Positions 12,730-22,553 of a stretch of DNA of 64,000 bases are shown piece by piece. The DNA is taken from contig JAGQSC010000019.1 in the NCBI GenBank assembly GCA_020439745.1, forward strand, positions 310,001 through 374,000, in the 5' to 3' direction. The notes under the pieces were generated by a model. It was not told the DNA's origin and searched no databases. It worked only from the letters and a program-made list of their open reading frames with translations. A program made the position numbers and the translations under genes. The stretch's first letter is position 1; each line of letters opens with the position of its first letter. The stretch comes from Acidobacteriota bacterium. GTDB lineage: Bacteria; Acidobacteriota; Holophagae; Acanthopleuribacterales; Acanthopleuribacteraceae.

Positions 12730-14358
12730 ATGACGTCATTCTTGTTGATCTATGCCCGCCAGGGACCTTTGTTGCAAACTGAAATGCAACAACCGCGACA
12801 ATGGGCGGAAGATCACGGGGTACCTGTTCAGGTATCCAGCGCCAACGACTTTGCCTTTGCGACCTTTGGCAGGCACAACACTGCCCAAATCGTCGACAAA
12901 CAGGGTGAGCTGGTGGGGTGGACGTCGCCGACAGGTCACCCGTTACCACAGCCAGATGTTCGTGGTTGGTATTCCGCGGTCCATACCATGCCGGAGATAC
13001 CCATGGCTTGTGTCCAGTTGTGTCGAAAACCCTTTTCCTTGTGGTTGGCTCGTGACCGTCTCGGGATTGCCACCCTATATTACCGTCTCACCGCTGACAG
13101 ACTTTGGGTATCGACTGAGGCGCGCTTGATCGCGATGGCATGCAACCGTTTCGATCTTTCGATCAAGGCATTGGTCTCCTGGGTCGCTGGTCGGTATCGA
13201 GACCATGAGCCACTGTTTGAATGTGTTCGTGGCCTTGAACGAGGCGTTGTAGTCAACCGAACGGATGACGAGGAAGGTCGAAGGCAATTACCCCTGCCGC
13301 CACAGAATCTGGGGATTCGCAAAAAAGAGGATGCCATGGCTGCGATTCGAGACCTATTGCGCAAGCAGTTGGTCCACAGCCTAGATCCCCATCACGTTAC
13401 CGGACTGCCCATCAGCGGCGGCATGGATTCATCCACACTCGCTGCTGTGGCTGTAGACCTCAAATCCGACCATCGTCTGGCGGCATTTGCTTATCGCTTC
13501 AAAACACTATCGAGTTGTGATGAGTCTGCGCGATCGGCCGCAACCGCAGCTGCGCTTAAGTTGCCTCTCACTTACATCGATTGCGAAGACAAGCCCATCC
13601 TAACCGAGCCCATGTATCCCGAACAATGGATTCCGGAAAACCCATTCGACAGTTGGAATCTCATTCACGAAGAGTCCCTACTTTGGCTCACGAGTCAAGA
13701 GGGCCACGTGATGTTGACGGGTCACGGCGGAGATTCCATGTTTAGCGGTATTCCGCCCACTTCGTTACGCGATGCAGCCTGGCGTCTTTCACATCGATTC
13801 GGCATCAAGAAGACGCCGCCCATCCCGTGGTTGACTGAAAAGGCCACAAAACTATTAGATCCAAACATGCCGGTAACCCTCACTAGACGGTCTCGCCAGT
13901 CGAATCTGGCATGGGATCGCATGGGAGGTGTCCGTCGGGCCGTTCATTGGCTGGAACGATTTGGCCGTTACTATGCCTGCCTTTATCGACATCCATATAT
14001 GAGTGAAGAACTGTTGCGCTTCTCACTGCAGATAGAACCCGACTTACTTTGGCTGGGTCGACCCAAGGGCTTAATGCGCCAATCCATGAAAGGGCTACTC
14101 CCCGACTCCGTCCTTCAATGCCTCGAAAAGCCGCATTTGAAAGAGTTCTACAGACGCGGACTCAAGCGAGCAGAACCGGAGATCGTTGCATTAATGGACG
14201 ATTCTCTGTTGGCTGAATATGGCCTGATAGAGCCAAAACGTTTCCTGCAGGCGTTTCGGCAGTATTTGGACGGATCCGAAGGTGGGATGCTGTTGTTTTC
14301 CATCCTTACGGAATTGTTTATTAGAAAAATTTCCGCAAATAGCACAACTATTCTTTAA
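12730..14358 (+). CDS. asparagine-synthetase-like lasso peptide cyclase
   Basis: 542 residues. The C-terminal half is an asparagine synthetase B fold with the ATP pyrophosphatase loop SGGMDSS (229-235) and GHGGDSMF (331-338, the GEGGDE-type motif). The N-terminal glutaminase-like domain has no Cys at position 2 (it reads MTSF), so it cannot release ammonia from glutamine, as in lasso macrolactam synthetases (McjC/LasC type), which adenylate an Asp or Glu side chain of the precursor and close the ring. The 53-codon lasso-type precursor gene 71 bases downstream supports this role. The leader-recognition protein and the transglutaminase-like leader peptidase usually found beside it are not in the window. 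Confidence 0.85.
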   Translation: MTSFLLIYARQGPLLQTEMQQPRQWAEDHGVPVQVSSANDFAFATFGRHNTAQIVDKQGELVGWTSPTGHPLPQPDVRGWYSAVHTMPEIPMACVQLCRKPFSLWLARDRLGIATLYYRLTADRLWVSTEARLIAMACNRFDLSIKALVSWVAGRYRDHEPLFECVRGLERGVVVNRTDDEEGRRQLPLPPQNLGIRKKEDAMAAIRDLLRKQLVHSLDPHHVTGLPISGGMDSSTLAAVAVDLKSDHRLAAFAYRFKTLSSCDESARSAATAAALKLPLTYIDCEDKPILTEPMYPEQWIPENPFDSWNLIHEESLLWLTSQEGHVMLTGHGGDSMFSGIPPTSLRDAAWRLSHRFGIKKTPPIPWLTEKATKLLDPNMPVTLTRRSRQSNLAWDRMGGVRRAVHWLERFGRYYACLYRHPYMSEELLRFSLQIEPDLLWLGRPKGLMRQSMKGLLPDSVLQCLEKPHLKEFYRRGLKRAEPEIVALMDDSLLAEYGLIEPKRFLQAFRQYLDGSEGGMLLFSILTELFIRKISANSTTIL

Positions 14359-14595: not shown

Positions 14596-17109
14596 CTAGT
14601 TCGCTTGCGACTTGCGCAGCCAGATGGCGCACAAGCCCAAGCCGATCACAAGCAACACCAATAGCGCTTCACTAAGAGTGGGCACGGTGATGGTCTGACC
14701 TAATACCGTAAATGTGCCGGTGGCGGTCACCACATAACAGGTGTCTGTTGTACCCACGACACCAGGCACAACAATCACACCAGACGGTGGGATGACAACA
14801 CCTGCTGCTAACAACACCCACTGACCCGTATCCGAAGTGCAATTGGAATCGTACAGATCGAAAATGCACCCAGGCACCCCGGTCACGGTGACAGCCCCGC
14901 CTATCTGTACATCTATCATCACAGGACCACAGGCAACCTCATCGTCAATGTTGGTGCACATAACGTCTTCCACCTGTAACGCCGTGAAGGCATGGTATAG
15001 AGGATCGTTGCTGGTTGGATCACCCGTGTCGATGGTGTACACCTGATCACCATCGGCAATTGCATCATCCACACCGGTCACCGTTACGGTCTGAGCCACG
15101 TTCCAGTTACCTGCCGTAAAAACCAACATAGCCACATCCGGCACCCCTTCCAATGGATTGGAGCTGGTGATAGGCAGGGTTACGTTGGCAGTGGGTTCTG
15201 AATCCAAGACTACTGTAAAGGTGTCTGAGGGGCCCATAGGATCTTCATATGTGACCAATCCGCTGGTGGGGGTCACGGTGAACCCCGCCGTATCGGCATC
15301 GTCGAGATTGATACAACTCACATCAGCTGGGTCGATTCCGTCATAGACCATATCCACGCTGGATGCAGGAACGGTCACGGCGAAGTAATTCACGTCACCG
15401 TCATCGATAAAGTCGTTCTGGCCTGTGACCATGACATTCTGCGGTGTATCCCAATTACCTGACGTGAAGGTAACACTAGCCAAAGACAGCAACCCCTCAC
15501 TCACATCACTCGAAAAAAGATCGATGGTCACATCAGCCGTGGGTTCTGAATTCAGGACCACTGTAAAATTTACCGCTGCACCCGCTTCCGTGGTTTGAAG
15601 CGGCTCAACGCCTCCTGGGGTCACTGTAATGCCTGCCGTGTCATCGTCAAGCACATTCACGGCAACGTCGATTACATCTGCGGCGCCTAACGCATCATAG
15701 ACGGCATCGCCCACCGAGGTGGGATCTCCAGTGATCAGCATCACATTCATATCACCGTCGTCAATATCATCATCAACGGGTGTCAGAGTAACCATTACTG
15801 GAGCTGTCGAGCCACTCGGTAACACGACGTTTGCTGGCACAGTGAATTCTGTGATGTCTGCTGAGGACAAGGGGACCGTTACGTTATCGGTGGGTGCCGT
15901 GTTGGCATTAACGGCAATCATGGTTGTTGGGCCCGCTTCATTCAAAGAAACCATGAGCGGACTGACCGTGATTCCTGCAATTTCATCATCGAAGTTGGTG
16001 CCTGTGACATCGGGTGGATCAATTCCTGAATAACCTGCATCGCCGGACACGACCGGACTCAACACAGCAGTAAACATCACATTGCCATCGGCAATGGCAT
16101 CGTCCACCCCACTTAGAATCACGGTTTGAGGTATGTCCCAATTGGCCTGATTAAACACCAGTGTGTCCATTGCCATGCCGTTCACCACCATCTCCCCCAC
16201 ATCGCTGGAAGAGATGTCAATGGATACGGTGTTACCGCCCAAAGGCGGTGCTGTCAAAACCACATCAAACGAAGATGCACCGCCCGCCTCGGTCGTGTTC
16301 ACATTCACAGTGGGCATCACCGAAACGCCGGCCGTCAACTGTGTTCCCGTCAACGCAAAGGCAAAATCGTGCTCGTTGGGCGTGGCATTGGGCGGTGCCA
16401 CCATGTTACAGGTTGTCACTCGCGCACCCCAAGCCGCAACGCAAACGCCTGAGAATAATGGGTCAGTCTGCATCCAGGCACTTTCAAAACCCACAATCGT
16501 ACCGGTATCCGGCGCCGCTGATGACTCAGTCCAGCCCCACTGACCCCCTACAAACACGTCCATATTCGGTTGCAAAACCAACCAGTAGGTACCCGCCACT
16601 AATAGGACGCCGTTCCCAGGCAAATCCACGCGAAAATCACCAGTCCCCACATCTGTATAGCTGGCGTTTTCGTAGGCATAAATCGCGCCAGCTGATAGAT
16701 TTGTGGTATCGGGAAGACTGCCCGAATTACCAAGAATATACACATTCACCGATTCCGCTGGCCCGGAACCGCCAAAATAGGAACCTCTCACTTCAACTGA
16801 GGTAATCTGCCAGGCCCGCTGTGCGGTGCTGATTACAAAATCATCGGCTCCGGCCGTAGCAAATCCCGCGGGAAGACCTGTCATCCCGCCCGTGACCGTA
16901 AACTGCTGTACAGATATCGCCCATGAAGGGGTCGCAATACCAGAAAACGTGCTGAACAAAACAGATCCATCCGTGAGCGGTGGCACGCTATCGTCCACGC
17001 CTCCAGGCTGTAATGTTACTTGAGCGAATAGCTGTCCCGAAAGCGCTAAAATCATCACAAGAATCGTTCGAAAACTTCGGTGGGTCAAGAAACACCCCCT
17101 CTTAGCCAT
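14596..17109 (-). CDS. secreted Calx-beta repeat protein with IPTL-CTERM anchor
   Basis: About 837 residues from ATG 17109, which gives a clean signal peptide (TILVMILALSGQLFAQ); the longer frame upstream adds 46 doubtful residues. After a ~220-residue N-terminal domain come four tandem Calx-beta-like repeats of about 110-120 residues, each with AGITV.P, a SS.V.E turn, VTGVDDAIADG and a closing ...NIDDE or LDDDT. A Cys-containing domain precedes the C terminus VPTLSEALLVLLVIGLG..AIWLRK, the VPTLSE-helix-basic IPTL-CTERM sorting signal. The repeats probably bind Ca through Asp-rich loops. Likely a surface or adhesive protein processed at the envelope. No exosortase-like gene is in the window. 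Confidence 0.87.
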   Translation of the reverse strand: MAKRGCFLTHRSFRTILVMILALSGQLFAQVTLQPGGVDDSVPPLTDGSVLFSTFSGIATPSWAISVQQFTVTGGMTGLPAGFATAGADDFVISTAQRAWQITSVEVRGSYFGGSGPAESVNVYILGNSGSLPDTTNLSAGAIYAYENASYTDVGTGDFRVDLPGNGVLLVAGTYWLVLQPNMDVFVGGQWGWTESSAAPDTGTIVGFESAWMQTDPLFSGVCVAAWGARVTTCNMVAPPNATPNEHDFAFALTGTQLTAGVSVMPTVNVNTTEAGGASSFDVVLTAPPLGGNTVSIDISSSDVGEMVVNGMAMDTLVFNQANWDIPQTVILSGVDDAIADGNVMFTAVLSPVVSGDAGYSGIDPPDVTGTNFDDEIAGITVSPLMVSLNEAGPTTMIAVNANTAPTDNVTVPLSSADITEFTVPANVVLPSGSTAPVMVTLTPVDDDIDDGDMNVMLITGDPTSVGDAVYDALGAADVIDVAVNVLDDDTAGITVTPGGVEPLQTTEAGAAVNFTVVLNSEPTADVTIDLFSSDVSEGLLSLASVTFTSGNWDTPQNVMVTGQNDFIDDGDVNYFAVTVPASSVDMVYDGIDPADVSCINLDDADTAGFTVTPTSGLVTYEDPMGPSDTFTVVLDSEPTANVTLPITSSNPLEGVPDVAMLVFTAGNWNVAQTVTVTGVDDAIADGDQVYTIDTGDPTSNDPLYHAFTALQVEDVMCTNIDDEVACGPVMIDVQIGGAVTVTGVPGCIFDLYDSNCTSDTGQWVLLAAGVVIPPSGVIVVPGVVGTTDTCYVVTATGTFTVLGQTITVPTLSEALLVLLVIGLGLCAIWLRKSQAN

Positions 17110-17405
17110 AATATTAGAAGGCAATAAATTAATACTATTATTAATAGCACATGTGCGTTTTGATGTCATGCAAGAATTGCTTAATTGAAATCTAGGCCGC
17201 AACAAATCCAGAATCAAGTCATCACGCCAATTCACGCGTTCATGCATCCGTCAATCCGAGCCTATCGCACAATTGAATTCCCAAGGCGGATCGTACCGAT
17301 GAAGATGCGCCTGGTGAAAGAACAGACCCTTCGTTCAAATGCTGAGATCGGCAATCATTGCCCCTTTTTCCGATACTACATGCAATACTGCATTGAGGAG
17401 GTTCT

Positions 17406-17757: not shown

Positions 17758-18366
17758 ATGCGTTATCGCGTTGTGAGCACTCCGGTTCGACACCAAATCG
17801 ACATACAGCGCAGTGTGTTTATCGCCGATGTGGCGCGTGCGGCGTCCGCAGATGAAGCCAAGTCATTTATTCAAGAGATCAGGAATGAGTTTCCAGGCGC
17901 CACCCACCATTGCTGGGCCTTTCAGACGGGACCACCGGGCGACACCCGAGACATGGGATATTCCGACGACGGTGAACCCCATGGCACTGCCGGGAAACCT
18001 ATGTTGCAGGTCCTCATGCACTCGGGACTTGGCGAGTTGGTCGCTGTGGTGACGCGCTATTACGGAGGCACAAAACTGGGTACAGGTGGATTGGCCCGGG
18101 CCTATGCCCAGGCTGTGAATGAGGCACTTGATCGCGCTCAGACTATTGAGCGCATGGATCGCCAGAGGTTCACTTGCGAGATGGACTACGCCCATCTCAC
18201 AGCGGTTGAATCACTGATCGCCAAAGTGGAAGGCTTGACGGATGACAAGGTGTTTGCCGCCGGTGTGAAGCTGACCATCCAGATACCGGTCGAGACCATC
18301 ACTCAATTTGAACGCCAATTGGCAGAAATCACGTCCGGCTCGGCACGCCTCGAGTCAATTACCTGA
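17758..18366 (+). CDS. yigZ: YigZ/IMPACT family protein
   Basis: 202 residues, the family size. The IMPACT N-terminal domain has HHCWAFQTG, SDDGEPHGTAGKPML and VVTRYYGGTKLGTGGLARAY, highly conserved in YigZ. The C-terminal ferredoxin-like domain follows from about 135. The family is conserved in bacteria and in eukaryotic IMPACT, which regulates the GCN2 kinase; the bacterial role is not firmly known. It begins 17 bases after the beta-lactamase remnant and its last 12 bases overlap the end of the convergent radical SAM gene. Confidence 0.95.
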   Translation: MRYRVVSTPVRHQIDIQRSVFIADVARAASADEAKSFIQEIRNEFPGATHHCWAFQTGPPGDTRDMGYSDDGEPHGTAGKPMLQVLMHSGLGELVAVVTRYYGGTKLGTGGLARAYAQAVNEALDRAQTIERMDRQRFTCEMDYAHLTAVESLIAKVEGLTDDKVFAAGVKLTIQIPVETITQFERQLAEITSGSARLESIT

Positions 18367-19323
18367 GCAGGACGCGCCACCCAACACACAGAACTTGGCG
18401 CAATGGGGATGGTTGAGCATCACTGTGCGATCCATGGTACTAAGACTCTTACCTACTTCAAACTGGGGATCATAGGCCAAAAGCGTGCACGCCAGTATCA
18501 CTGGCTCATTGGCGTCTTTCCGCTTGACGACCATACGCGAACTGGCACACATGACATCGTCCGGATTCTTATTGAGAATGCTCCAACACGAAACCGTAAT
18601 CTCCGGAACGTTCATGTTGCCATCCATTTCGGGAAACAGTACGAAATGCCGACTGGAGGCCATATCAATTCGCAGCCCGAGTTCATCAAATAACCGTTTG
18701 AACCCGTCTCGAGAACGCTCCTGCGACTCACCCCACATTTGTCGTCCAGCCACACCGATGTGGAATCCCTCGTCAGACAGCCATTTTAGCCACCGGGTCG
18801 TGACTTCAAACGCTCGTGGCCCGCGCTCTTCATCGTGAAGTTCGGCCGAGTAATGGTCCAGTGACACACGTAACATTAGCCGATCCCCATACCTGTCCTT
18901 CAAGCCCAACAAAGCTTGCTTGTGACGACCGATGACATGAAACGCGTTGGTCAAAACAATTACGTCAAACCCCCGCGCCAAAGTGACCTCAAGCATGGGT
19001 ATGATGTGCGGATTGATCAGGGGTTCGCCACCGGTGAAACCAATTTCACGGGTATCCCAGCCTAGTTCTCTGATTTCGTCCAGGTAATGCACCACATCGG
19101 GAACTGACAGGTACGCCAACCGATCGTTCTTGGGATTCGACTCGATATAGCAATGGGCACAGGCTAGATTACACAGCGTGCCCGTGTTGAACCAGAGCGT
19201 GTTCAGAGCCCTAAACGGCACGGAAGCGCGCATTTCACCCTTAGCGGTGATTTGTGGGTCGCTGAACTTGTTCAGATGTAGCGTTTGATCCAAGAAAACT
19301 CCAAAGGTGGCGCATTGTACCAT
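18355..19323 (-). CDS. radical SAM enzyme
   Basis: About 322 residues from ATG 19323. The motif TLCNLACAHCY (CxxxCxxC) binds the SAM-reducing [4Fe-4S] cluster, and FTGGEPLINP is the usual GGEP SAM site. A C-terminal group, HPHCAKFCVLGGASC, has three more Cys that may hold a second cluster, though it is too short for a full SPASM domain. Substrate unknown. An open frame extends to TTG 19425, but that would overlap the E1 promoter and carry a non-conserved N terminus; ATG 19395 and 19371 are other choices. It is divergent from the 2-oxoglutarate dehydrogenase gene and convergent with yigZ. Confidence 0.88.
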   Translation of the reverse strand: MVQCATFGVFLDQTLHLNKFSDPQITAKGEMRASVPFRALNTLWFNTGTLCNLACAHCYIESNPKNDRLAYLSVPDVVHYLDEIRELGWDTREIGFTGGEPLINPHIIPMLEVTLARGFDVIVLTNAFHVIGRHKQALLGLKDRYGDRLMLRVSLDHYSAELHDEERGPRAFEVTTRWLKWLSDEGFHIGVAGRQMWGESQERSRDGFKRLFDELGLRIDMASSRHFVLFPEMDGNMNVPEITVSCWSILNKNPDDVMCASSRMVVKRKDANEPVILACTLLAYDPQFEVGKSLSTMDRTVMLNHPHCAKFCVLGGASCSGN

Positions 19324-19384
19324 GTGGCACACAGCCACTAGTTTGCCAAACACACACAGCTCGATGTTCATTCCAAGGGCCGCT

Positions 19385-19414
19385 TTGCCCGGCATCCTCG
19401 AAATTCGGTATACT
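19385..19414 (+). promoter_or_regulatory. sigma-70 promoter for the E1 gene
   Basis: TTGCCC (19385-19390) and TATACT (19409-19414) with an 18-base spacer, 22 bases before ATG 19437, with AAGGAG at 19424-19429 as ribosome site. It lies inside the longest possible version of the divergent radical SAM frame, which argues for a shorter start there. Confidence 0.65.
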
Positions 19415-19436
19415 GACTGACTCAAGGAGAACTACC

Positions 19437-22400
19437 ATGAACAGCAGTCATTTAGACGTTTACAGCCAAAACGTCACCTACATAGAGGCTCTGTTTCATC
19501 AATACCTCGCAGACCCCAATTCGGTAGACCCTAGTTTGCGCAACATGTTTGCATCGTGGGACAGCGACACATCGCGGCCCGTGTTGCTGGAAGAAACTGG
19601 CGGGATCGCCGGATATTTGCGCCGCTTGCCACTGTTCTCGGAAATGAGCCATGACGATTTGATGGGGTTGACCGAGATTACGGAACGAGTGGGCGTATCT
19701 GCCGGTGAGACCTTGGCCCGCGCAGGCCAGGTAGGCAACGACCTCTATATCATCTTGGATGGCATCGTAGCGATCATGAGGCAGGGCGAGCTGATTTCCC
19801 AGTTGGGTGCTGGTGAGGTGGTGGGAGAACTAGCTGTGTTGGATTCTCGTCCACGATCGGCCGATATCGTGGCGCAAACCGCACTGACCTTGCTACGCAT
19901 CCGTAAGGCTGATTTTGAGCACCTGATGGATCAGAGGCACGGATTCACCAAGGCGATGTTGACCACTTTGGCGCAACGTCTTCGCGTTGCGGGTTCTCGT
20001 CAGGAACGGGTCGACAATCTGATTCGCGCTTATCGCGAACGGGGTCACGTGATTGCACGGCTGGATCCGCTAAATATCGAGACACCCCAGCATCCCGAGT
20101 TGACCCTCGCCCATTACGGCTTTTCAGAAGCCGATTTGGACCAACGGTTCACCGCCTCCATCGGCAGCGAAATAACGGGTAGGACATTGCGTCATATTCT
20201 GGAGCACTTGCAGAAAACCTACTGCCGCGCCATCGGCGTTCAGTACATGCACATCGATGACATGGAAATTCAGGAATGGCTGCGGCGTCGCATGGAAGAC
20301 ACCATGAATGAGCGGCCCATGAGCCGAGCGGAGCAAGTTCATATTCTCTCCAAGTTGACCGACGCCGAAGTATTTGAGAGCTTCCTACATCGCAAATTCG
20401 TCGGCTCCAAGCGATTCTCACTCGAAGGCGGCGAGAGCCTGATTCCGCTGCTTGACTGGGCCATTGAAGAGGCAGGCCGTCATGGGATTGACGAAGTCGT
20501 GTTAGCTATGGCCCATCGCGGACGACTCAATGTGCTGGCAAACATCATGGGCAAACCCGCCCACCAAATCTTTCGTGAGTTTCAGGATGTGGATGGCAAA
20601 TCACAAACCGGAAGAGGCGATGTGAAATACCATCTGGGTTACAGCAGTGATCGGGCTACAGCCAGTGGTCACAACATCCACCTGTCCCTGTGTTTCAATC
20701 CCAGCCATCTAGAGTTTGTGACACCGGTGGCGTTCGGCCGAGTACGGGCCAAGCAGGACCGTTTCGGTGACAAACGCCACGAACGGGCGTTGGCTCTGGT
20801 CATTCATGGCGATGCGGCTTTTGCGGGACAAGGCGTGACCCAGGAAAGCCTCAACCTCAGTCGCCTTGATGGCTATGCCACAGGCGGAGCCATTCACGTG
20901 ATACTCAACAACCAGATCGGGTTCACCACGCTGCCACACGACAGTCGATCCACTCAGTACTGCACCGACGTAGCACGCATGCTGCAAGTACCCATCTTCC
21001 ACGTAAACGGCGAGAACCCGGAGGCGGTGGCGCAGGTCATACAGCTGGCTATGGATTTCCGACAGAAGTTCAAGATGGATGTGGTGATCGACATGTACTG
21101 CTACCGCAAGTACGGCCACAACGAAGGCGACGACCCCACATTTACCCAGCCGAAGATTTACGAGATCATCAAGAACCTACCCACCGTACGTGAAGCCTAT
21201 ATCGCCAACGTTTTGAAGATGGGTGAAATAACACAGGCTGAAGCCGACCAAATCGCTGAAGAGTCCAAGGCTCGATTGGAAGCTGACCTGGCTACTTCCA
21301 AGGAGGAGAGCTACACCTACACGCATTTCCGTGAGGGCATGGATATCTGGGGCAAGTATCGCGGCGGACCCGATGCCGACACGCCAGATGTGGCTACTTG
21401 CGTGGATATCACGGCACTGTCTGACTACTTAACGCGCATCACACACGTGCCGGACACGTTTTCCGCCCACCCCAAGATCATGCGGTTCCTGGATCAACAG
21501 CGTGAGATGAGTGAAGGCAAGCAGCCCTTGAACTGGGGCACGGCCGAGTTATTGGCTTATGCATCACTGGTCGCCGAGGGCACGCGTGTTCGATTGAGCG
21601 GTCAAGATAGCGGCCGCGGCACTTTCAGTCACCGACACGCTATTTTGTTCGACACTAAGAACGGGCAGACATACGTACCGTTACAACACGTGCGGGCTGA
21701 TCAGGCTCCTTTCCGCGTGTTCAATAGCCCTTTGACCGAAATCGCTGTTCTGGGATTTGAATACGGTTACAGCATGGACTATCCGGATGGTTTGGTGATC
21801 TGGGAAGCCCAATTCGGAGATTTTTGCAATGTGGCTCAAGTCGTCATTGACCAGTTCATCACCAGTTCCGAGGACAAATGGAACCGCTTGAATTCATTGG
21901 TCATGCTTTTGCCTCATGGGTTTGAGGGGCAGGGACCTGAACATTCCAGCGCCCGCCTCGAACGGTTCTTAAACCTCGCCGCTGAAGACAACATCCAAGT
22001 CGTCAACTTGACAACACCTGCCCAACTATTCCATTGCCTCAGACGCCAAGTGGTTCGGCCCATTCGCAAACCCCTCATGGTCATGTCGCCCAAGAGCTTG
22101 CTGCGCCATCCCAAGGTCACGTCCACATTGGAAGAGCTCGCTACTGGTGAATTCCAACGTGTCATTCCCGATACGGAAGTTGACCCCAGAGGTGTTAAGA
22201 GGATCATGTTGTGTAGTGGCAAAGTCTATTACGACCTGCTGGAAGCGCGGGCGCAACGACAGGCAGAACACGTGGCCATCGTACGATTGGAACAATACTA
22301 TCCCATCCCCTACGACCACTTGGAAGCGGCATTACGCCCTTTCGACACGCAAGCACCCGTCACTTGGATCCAAGAAGAACCGAGTAACATGGGCGCTTGG

Positions 22401-22553
22401 CCGTTTATTCACTTCCACTTCGAGCGGCAAATTGCCAACCGCAACCTCAATTTCGTGGCGCGCGCGGAATCATCCAGTCCTGCGACGGGATCCTCATCGA
22501 GCCACAAACACGAACAGGCCGACCTCATGGATCGTGCCTTTCAGGAGCCATGA
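19437..22553 (+). CDS. sucA: 2-oxoglutarate dehydrogenase E1 with inserted cyclic-nucleotide-binding domain
   Basis: 1038 residues, about 110 longer than usual SucA (~930). Residues 11-40 (YIEALFHQYLADPNSVDPSLR) are the E1 N-terminal tether. Then at ~60-185 comes a complete cNMP-binding domain (FSEMSHDDLMGL, GDxxxxILDGIVAI, and the phosphate cassette GELAVLDSRPRSAD at 130-143 with the key Glu and Arg). From ~190 the standard E1 resumes: LIRAYRERGHVIARLDPL, MAHRGRLNVL, GDAAFAGQG, HNEGDDP, and the C-terminal transketolase part (SGQDSGRGTFSHRHA, PHGFEGQGPEHSSAR). It should bind thiamine diphosphate and decarboxylate 2-oxoglutarate in the TCA cycle. No E2 or E3 gene is next to it. Confidence 0.95.
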   Translation: MNSSHLDVYSQNVTYIEALFHQYLADPNSVDPSLRNMFASWDSDTSRPVLLEETGGIAGYLRRLPLFSEMSHDDLMGLTEITERVGVSAGETLARAGQVGNDLYIILDGIVAIMRQGELISQLGAGEVVGELAVLDSRPRSADIVAQTALTLLRIRKADFEHLMDQRHGFTKAMLTTLAQRLRVAGSRQERVDNLIRAYRERGHVIARLDPLNIETPQHPELTLAHYGFSEADLDQRFTASIGSEITGRTLRHILEHLQKTYCRAIGVQYMHIDDMEIQEWLRRRMEDTMNERPMSRAEQVHILSKLTDAEVFESFLHRKFVGSKRFSLEGGESLIPLLDWAIEEAGRHGIDEVVLAMAHRGRLNVLANIMGKPAHQIFREFQDVDGKSQTGRGDVKYHLGYSSDRATASGHNIHLSLCFNPSHLEFVTPVAFGRVRAKQDRFGDKRHERALALVIHGDAAFAGQGVTQESLNLSRLDGYATGGAIHVILNNQIGFTTLPHDSRSTQYCTDVARMLQVPIFHVNGENPEAVAQVIQLAMDFRQKFKMDVVIDMYCYRKYGHNEGDDPTFTQPKIYEIIKNLPTVREAYIANVLKMGEITQAEADQIAEESKARLEADLATSKEESYTYTHFREGMDIWGKYRGGPDADTPDVATCVDITALSDYLTRITHVPDTFSAHPKIMRFLDQQREMSEGKQPLNWGTAELLAYASLVAEGTRVRLSGQDSGRGTFSHRHAILFDTKNGQTYVPLQHVRADQAPFRVFNSPLTEIAVLGFEYGYSMDYPDGLVIWEAQFGDFCNVAQVVIDQFITSSEDKWNRLNSLVMLLPHGFEGQGPEHSSARLERFLNLAAEDNIQVVNLTTPAQLFHCLRRQVVRPIRKPLMVMSPKSLLRHPKVTSTLEELATGEFQRVIPDTEVDPRGVKRIMLCSGKVYYDLLEARAQRQAEHVAIVRLEQYYPIPYDHLEAALRPFDTQAPVTWIQEEPSNMGAWPFIHFHFERQIANRNLNFVARAESSSPATGSSSSHKHEQADLMDRAFQEP

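Follow-up and report, generated by a model that had tools for sequence, protein, structure and literature searches.

The 2-oxoglutarate dehydrogenase complex stands at the junction of carbon oxidation and nitrogen assimilation, and its control varies by organism, with AMP, NADH, acetyl-CoA or FHA proteins as inputs. The E1 component (E1o) of Escherichia coli, SucA, is reported to respond to AMP via a site inside the catalytic core. The actinobacterial enzyme OdhA/KGD is regulated by acetyl-CoA and by OdhI/GarA, the FHA regulator being a separate protein, and carries an added domain that is a succinyltransferase (E2) (PMC10415282). In mycobacterial Pat (Rv0998/MSMEG_5458, a type III GNAT), an N-terminal cAMP domain activates the catalytic domain (PMC8556138). 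A 2007 census of 7,696 proteins with cyclic-nucleotide-binding (CNB) domains, sorted into 30 families, included an oxidoreductase fusion family and no 2-oxoacid dehydrogenase; CNB domains with other ligands or none, as in CooA and PDZ-GEF, are described there as well (PMC2246266).

We analysed a stretch of 64,000 nucleotides (the window) from a metagenome-assembled genome of an Acidobacteriota bacterium of the Acanthopleuribacteraceae, in which one gene encodes an intact E1o whose chain runs from the E2/E3-binding tether through a full CNB domain to the catalytic core (CNB-E1o). This protein is probably the E1 of a 2-oxoglutarate dehydrogenase complex that acts as a cyclic-nucleotide receptor, its activity being allosterically gated by a cyclic nucleotide, most likely cAMP.

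Domain layout and predicted fold of CNB-E1o

The open reading frame of CNB-E1o contained no internal stops and was preceded by a ribosome-binding-site-like AAGGAG ahead of its ATG, and third-position base composition did not change between the CNB domain and the E1 part. An earlier note, made from the sequence alone, had read the gene as an E1o with a built-in cyclic-nucleotide domain between tether and core, and the order PF16078-PF00027-PF00676 within one frame bore this out (Table 1). All Pfam domain calls exceeded the curated cut-offs, with 36.9 bits for the PF16078 tether (cut-off 27, E=2.7e-9) and 67.6 bits for PF00027 cNMP_binding (cut-off 27.5, E=9.5e-19). Identity as E1o was assigned by the NCBIfam equivalogs PRK09404 (1250.7 bits, cut-off 764) and TIGR00239 (1076.7 bits, cut-off 770). 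The E1 blocks HRGRLN, GDAAFAGQG...NNQ, HNEGD and SHRH were conserved in the family alignment and matched Vibrio vulnificus SucA; the catalytic core is complete, with the ThDP/Mg motif and the active-site His intact. V. vulnificus SucA was also the closest solved structure, with an alignment that began at residue 187, a core identity of 48% and, for the AlphaFold2 model, a TMt of 0.94.

Table 1. Coordinates of the CNB-E1o gene and its parts in the window
Feature	Position	Strand	Size or basis
CNB-E1o gene: 2-oxoglutarate dehydrogenase E1 with internal CNB domain	19437..22553	+	1038 aa
PF16078 E2/E3-binding tether, N-terminal, residues 9-43	19461..19565	+	Pfam; kept in 16/17 fusions
Flexible linker, residues 44-56	19566..19604	+	Low confidence: pLDDT <50 at residues 43-55
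CNB domain, residues 57-167 (PF00027 core 87-166)	19605..19937	+	Pfam and fold matches
Phosphate-binding cassette GELAVLDSRPRSAD, residues 130-143 (Glu131, Arg140)	19824..19865	+	Cassette conservation
Continuous helix, residues 168-206, CNB C-helix to first core helix RQERVDNLIRAYRERGH	19938..20054	+	AlphaFold2 secondary structure
E1_dh PF00676, residues 313-625, with HRGRLN and ThDP/Mg motif GDAAFAGQG...NNQ	20373..21311	+	Pfam, alignment
Transket_pyr PF02779, residues 697-890	21525..22106	+	Pfam
OxoGdeHyase_C PF16870, residues 895-1035	22119..22541	+	Pfam

Taken alone, the CNB segment matched the structures of PKG, PKA-R, Epac, CNG-channel and CRP proteins in sequence. When the domain was modelled by itself (AlphaFold2, pLDDT 87), a beta-roll with flanking helices was predicted, and Foldseek aligned this model to CNB domains with E as low as 9.5e-13 and TMq of 0.70-0.87. 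In the model of the whole protein, the predicted CNB fold covered residues 56-187 or thereabouts, slightly wider than the Pfam core. The fold partners were CRP-type regulators (CRP, GlxR), MlotiK1, HCN and the CNB domains of PKA-R, that is, ligand binders. In the AlphaFold2 model of the whole protein, residues 168-206 formed one helix that serves both as the CNB domain's C-terminal helix and as the first core helix, and within it R183, Q189, Y199-R200 and G203-H204 were conserved in the alignment. The C-terminal helix of CNB domains in PKA and CRP moves upon ligand binding, and the modelled helix would give a physical coupling route from the CNB domain to the catalytic core.

The cassette GELAVLDSRPRSA (residues 130-142) had the canonical form, with both Glu and Arg, in keeping with the earlier note's claim of a complete domain with its phosphate cassette. 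The domain was conserved across lineages. Arg140 is the equivalent of Arg209 of PKA, which coordinates the cAMP phosphate (PMC2246266). Gly169 of PKA, which is co-conserved with this Arg in cAMP-type CNB domains (PMC2246266), had its counterpart in Gly100 of the window protein; the alignment placed Ala or Glu there in several relatives.

Spread, conservation and origin of the fusion

On the question of how widely the arrangement is spread, which the earlier note had raised, scans of genomes and contigs yielded 17 distinct CNB-E1o proteins from several bacterial groups, so that the architecture is present in 16 proteins besides that of the window. PF00027, a model built independently of these fusions, matched all 17. 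Carriers were found in the Acanthopleuribacteraceae, in two families of Thermoanaerobaculia and in metagenome-assembled genomes (MAGs) labelled Myxococcota and Deltaproteobacteria. Within the Acanthopleuribacteraceae, the fusion was present in 6/7 genomes, including those of Acanthopleuribacter pedis and Sulfidibacter corallicola, and the seventh (G002) had an unfused E1o only. An E1o match was obtained in 160/297 Acidobacteriota genomes, and among the matches listed only those of the window genome (G000) and of G260, a member of the Thermoanaerobaculia, began in the CNB region. In that class, the carriers belonged to families f73 and f83, and no fusion was seen in the other Thermoanaerobaculia families. 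A scan of GTDB contigs added L038 (Myxococcota) and L043 (Deltaproteobacteria), labels which are MAG titles only. In L043 (7977-10994), the CNB domain lay at the extreme N-terminus of the E1o in place of the tether, and the protein formed a long branch in the tree; this is possibly a separate fusion event.

It is vanishingly improbable that CNB-E1o is an assembly or frame artefact in which a CRP-like gene was joined to sucA. We found no point in favour of this explanation, which was rejected on the recurrence of the architecture in 17 distinct proteins, on a tether in frame ahead of the CNB domain in 16/17 together with an uninterrupted E1 core and on the presence of the fusion in isolates, both A. 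pedis and S. corallicola being described species and Sulfidibacter being represented by a complete chromosome.

Across the 17 fusions, the CNB columns G109, G126, G130, E131, V134 and A142 were invariant, and P139 and R140 were kept in 16/17. Conserved columns made up 6/13 of the cassette and 5/94 of the remaining CNB domain (Fisher p=3e-4). The earlier note would have given up its reading if close relatives had the cassette in decayed form only; this was rejected, as Glu was kept in all 17 fusions and Arg in 16 of them, and decay or loss was seen in a single genus and is not the rule. In that genus, L048 (G325) reads PWSA instead of PRSA, with Trp for the cassette Arg, and its congener G324 (L124) has no CNB domain at all, so the domain is dispensable there. 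One family thus offers a natural series of an intact cassette (L047), a lost Arg (L048) and a lost domain (G324).

These patterns bear on a reading in which the CNB domain is a ligand-free structural or docking module, serving as a tether spacer or an aid to complex assembly and not in signalling. The position of the domain in L043 in the tether's stead, the loss of Arg in L048 and the faster divergence of the CNB domain than of the E1 core (mean conservation 0.53 vs 0.73) all fit such a module; the preferential conservation of the cassette and its nearly constant Glu and Arg would however go unexplained, and we hold this reading to be decidedly unlikely. Conservation of this architecture in several groups of bacteria suggests that E1o may be controlled directly by a cyclic nucleotide.

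The best tree of E1 cores (51 rows, IQ-TREE) contained two fused clades and one loss, or three changes; a single fused clade that included G324 was not rejected (AU p=0.30). In a tree of 107 CNB domains, the fused ones fell near each other on weak support; this tree draws on few columns, and the scan behind it was biased to similar cassettes. We favour, as the simpler history, a single old insertion that some lineages later lost; two independent gains of the domain would be possible. In unfused relatives such as L069 and L080, the tether or linker ends in G-P-x-F...S-[IL]-F, and a helix of the type QDRVDQLIRAYRVRGH comes immediately after it. The fusions of clade B have this linker motif and this helix too, with the CNB domain lying between the two; the domain was therefore inserted between the linker and the first core helix.

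Paralogues, cyclases and the proposed control

In the window genome, the CNB-E1o gene stands alone, without neighbours of the TCA cycle, and the locus gave no operon clue, the genes around it in the window being unrelated (radical SAM, SDR, metallo-beta-lactamase fold and ferrochelatase). Among other genes of the window, that at 12730-14358 (+) encodes an asparagine-synthase-like protein with weak likeness to lasso-peptide cyclases and that at 18355-19425 (-) a radical SAM protein with weak likeness to peptide maturases, both under the NCBIfam family cut-offs and separated by few genes. At 14596-17247 (-), a repeat-rich protein of 883 aa had no match in Pfam or NCBIfam, and its C-terminus VPTLSEALLVLLVIGLGLCAIWLRKSQ resembles an IPTL/PEP-CTERM-type sorting signal.

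A second, unfused E1o of the window genome was found in the order gap-E1o-sucB-lpd (G000:C16:72230-76110; L150:10222-15508), with the one sucB above cut-off in that genome (G000:C16:74908-76110) followed by an lpd-like ORF. Since this copy adjoins sucB-lpd, TCA flux in the window genome need not depend on the fused one. The two proteins were 48% identical and fell in separate clades, and on these separate clades we rejected the idea that CNB-E1o is a recent duplicate of the other E1o.

Two E1o genes were likewise found in each of G001, G003, G005 and G006. In G004 (assembly 92% complete), the fused E1o was the only one found, and sucB-lpd had no adjacent E1. From the gene content of G000 and G004, CNB-E1o in the Acanthopleuribacteraceae can be a second isozyme or the sole E1o.

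In the genomes of Thermoanaerobaculia families f73 and f83, the fusion was the only E1o found above the equivalog cut-off. At L156 (G325) and L157 (G354), it was followed on the same strand by sucB and an lpd-like ORF, and in G323, G353 and G355 the order E1o-sucB was the same, as judged by position. The fused protein should therefore be the TCA-cycle E1o of these two families, as the sole E1o found and, in the two genomes examined for it (G325 and G354), the head of an E1o-sucB-lpd operon, and from this gene content the idea that TCA flux is set by cAMP or cGMP via E1o would apply in full in the Thermoanaerobaculia.

The paralogues raise the question of whether the orphan fused E1 of the Acanthopleuribacteraceae has drifted to a different 2-oxo acid or to the role of a free 2-oxoglutarate decarboxylase, with the unfused E1o running the TCA step. 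Such drift would suit genomes with two E1o genes, the placing of only the unfused copy beside sucB-lpd in the window genome and the low identity and separate clades of the pair. It is nonetheless improbable, as the fused copy outscored its paralogue on the E1o equivalog PRK09404 (1250.7 vs 1147.6 bits) and retained the tether as well as the SucA-aligned motifs of the core, as G004 has the fused E1o alone and as the Thermoanaerobaculia orthologues lie within the sucB-lpd operon.

Class III cyclase domains were present in every fusion-bearing genome searched, with four in the window genome. One of these has an FHA-GAF-cyclase layout and, from its metal-binding aspartates, the Lys in DKYIGD and the Thr in EYTVLGN, is presumably of the ATP-using type. 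Cyclases were however found in 113/148 genomes of these groups, without a significant difference between genomes with and without the fusion (p=0.12); because they are this common, their presence does not discriminate, and co-occurrence was dropped as evidence for cAMP after this test of 148 genomes. The cyclases of the fusion-bearing genomes are a precondition for the link to cAMP, not evidence for it. The window genome encodes further proteins in which a CNB domain is joined to an ABC-exporter-like, a repeat-rich and an acyltransferase-like protein, as judged by eye, and to an FHA domain, as checked by Pfam (L005, L006, L007 and L008); CNB domains linked to enzymes or signalling parts are thus common in this genome.

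The CNB domain could also be a true allosteric sensor whose ligand is neither cAMP nor cGMP, such as another nucleotide, a nucleoside or a small molecule that reports energy or nitrogen state. The CNB domain of CooA takes heme (PMC2246266) and that of trypanosome PKA takes nucleosides (PMC10959531), the residue after the cassette Arg differed among the fusions (S, W, I, V), and AMP or acetyl-CoA affect E1o enzymes elsewhere. This alternative is unlikely all the same, given that the canonical G-E...P-R-x-A was kept in nearly all fusions, a pattern from which families with other ligands often depart (PMC2246266), and that cyclases are encoded in the tested genomes.

We prefer gating by a cyclic nucleotide, most likely cAMP, which would occupy the internal CRP/PKA-type domain with Glu131 directed to the ribose and Arg140 to the phosphate. 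The bound ligand would move the C-terminal helix of that domain, the unbroken helix 168-206 would relay this movement to the first core helix, and the shift would alter E1 activity with either sign, the tether docking CNB-E1o on an ordinary E2/E3. In this model we infer the ligand, its affinity, the allosteric coupling and whether the effect is positive or negative. The wider proposition is evenly poised: that in several Acidobacteriota and Myxococcota-labelled lineages 2-oxoglutarate oxidation is set by the direct action of a cyclic nucleotide, cAMP or other, unmediated by any transcription factor, kinase or FHA protein, and that in two Thermoanaerobaculia families the E1o concerned is the only one. 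If true, a cyclic nucleotide would be a new direct input to 2-oxoglutarate dehydrogenase, and cAMP signalling and central metabolism would meet in one polypeptide without transcription.

Comparison with known systems

No description of a combination of CNB domain and E1o was found in the open-access literature, a scope that takes in only a minority of subscription papers and no bioRxiv preprints. SucA (E. coli 2JGD; V. vulnificus 6KM9/6KMA) resembles CNB-E1o in the whole catalytic core and the tether but has no CNB domain. Actinobacterial OdhA/KGD (8P5R-8P5W; PMC10415282) is, like CNB-E1o, an E1o with an added domain ahead of the core and has its E1 step under allosteric control; it differs in that an E2 domain lies where the CNB domain lies in CNB-E1o and that it has no CNB domain, and in CNB-E1o the Pfam scan found no 2-oxoacid_dh (E2) domain. 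CRP/GlxR/Clr, PKA regulatory subunits, MlotiK1 and HCN share the fold and the phosphate-binding cassette with CNB-E1o, but their CNB domains act on DNA binding, on a kinase or on a channel, whereas the partner in CNB-E1o is a ThDP enzyme. The NCBIfam Pat model also matched the CNB domain of CNB-E1o, in which a GNAT domain was absent by Pfam scan. Pat is the closest precedent in principle, though not in membership, as a bacterial enzyme with an N-terminal CNB domain for its built-in switch; its catalytic part, however, is a protein acetyltransferase and not an enzyme of the TCA cycle.
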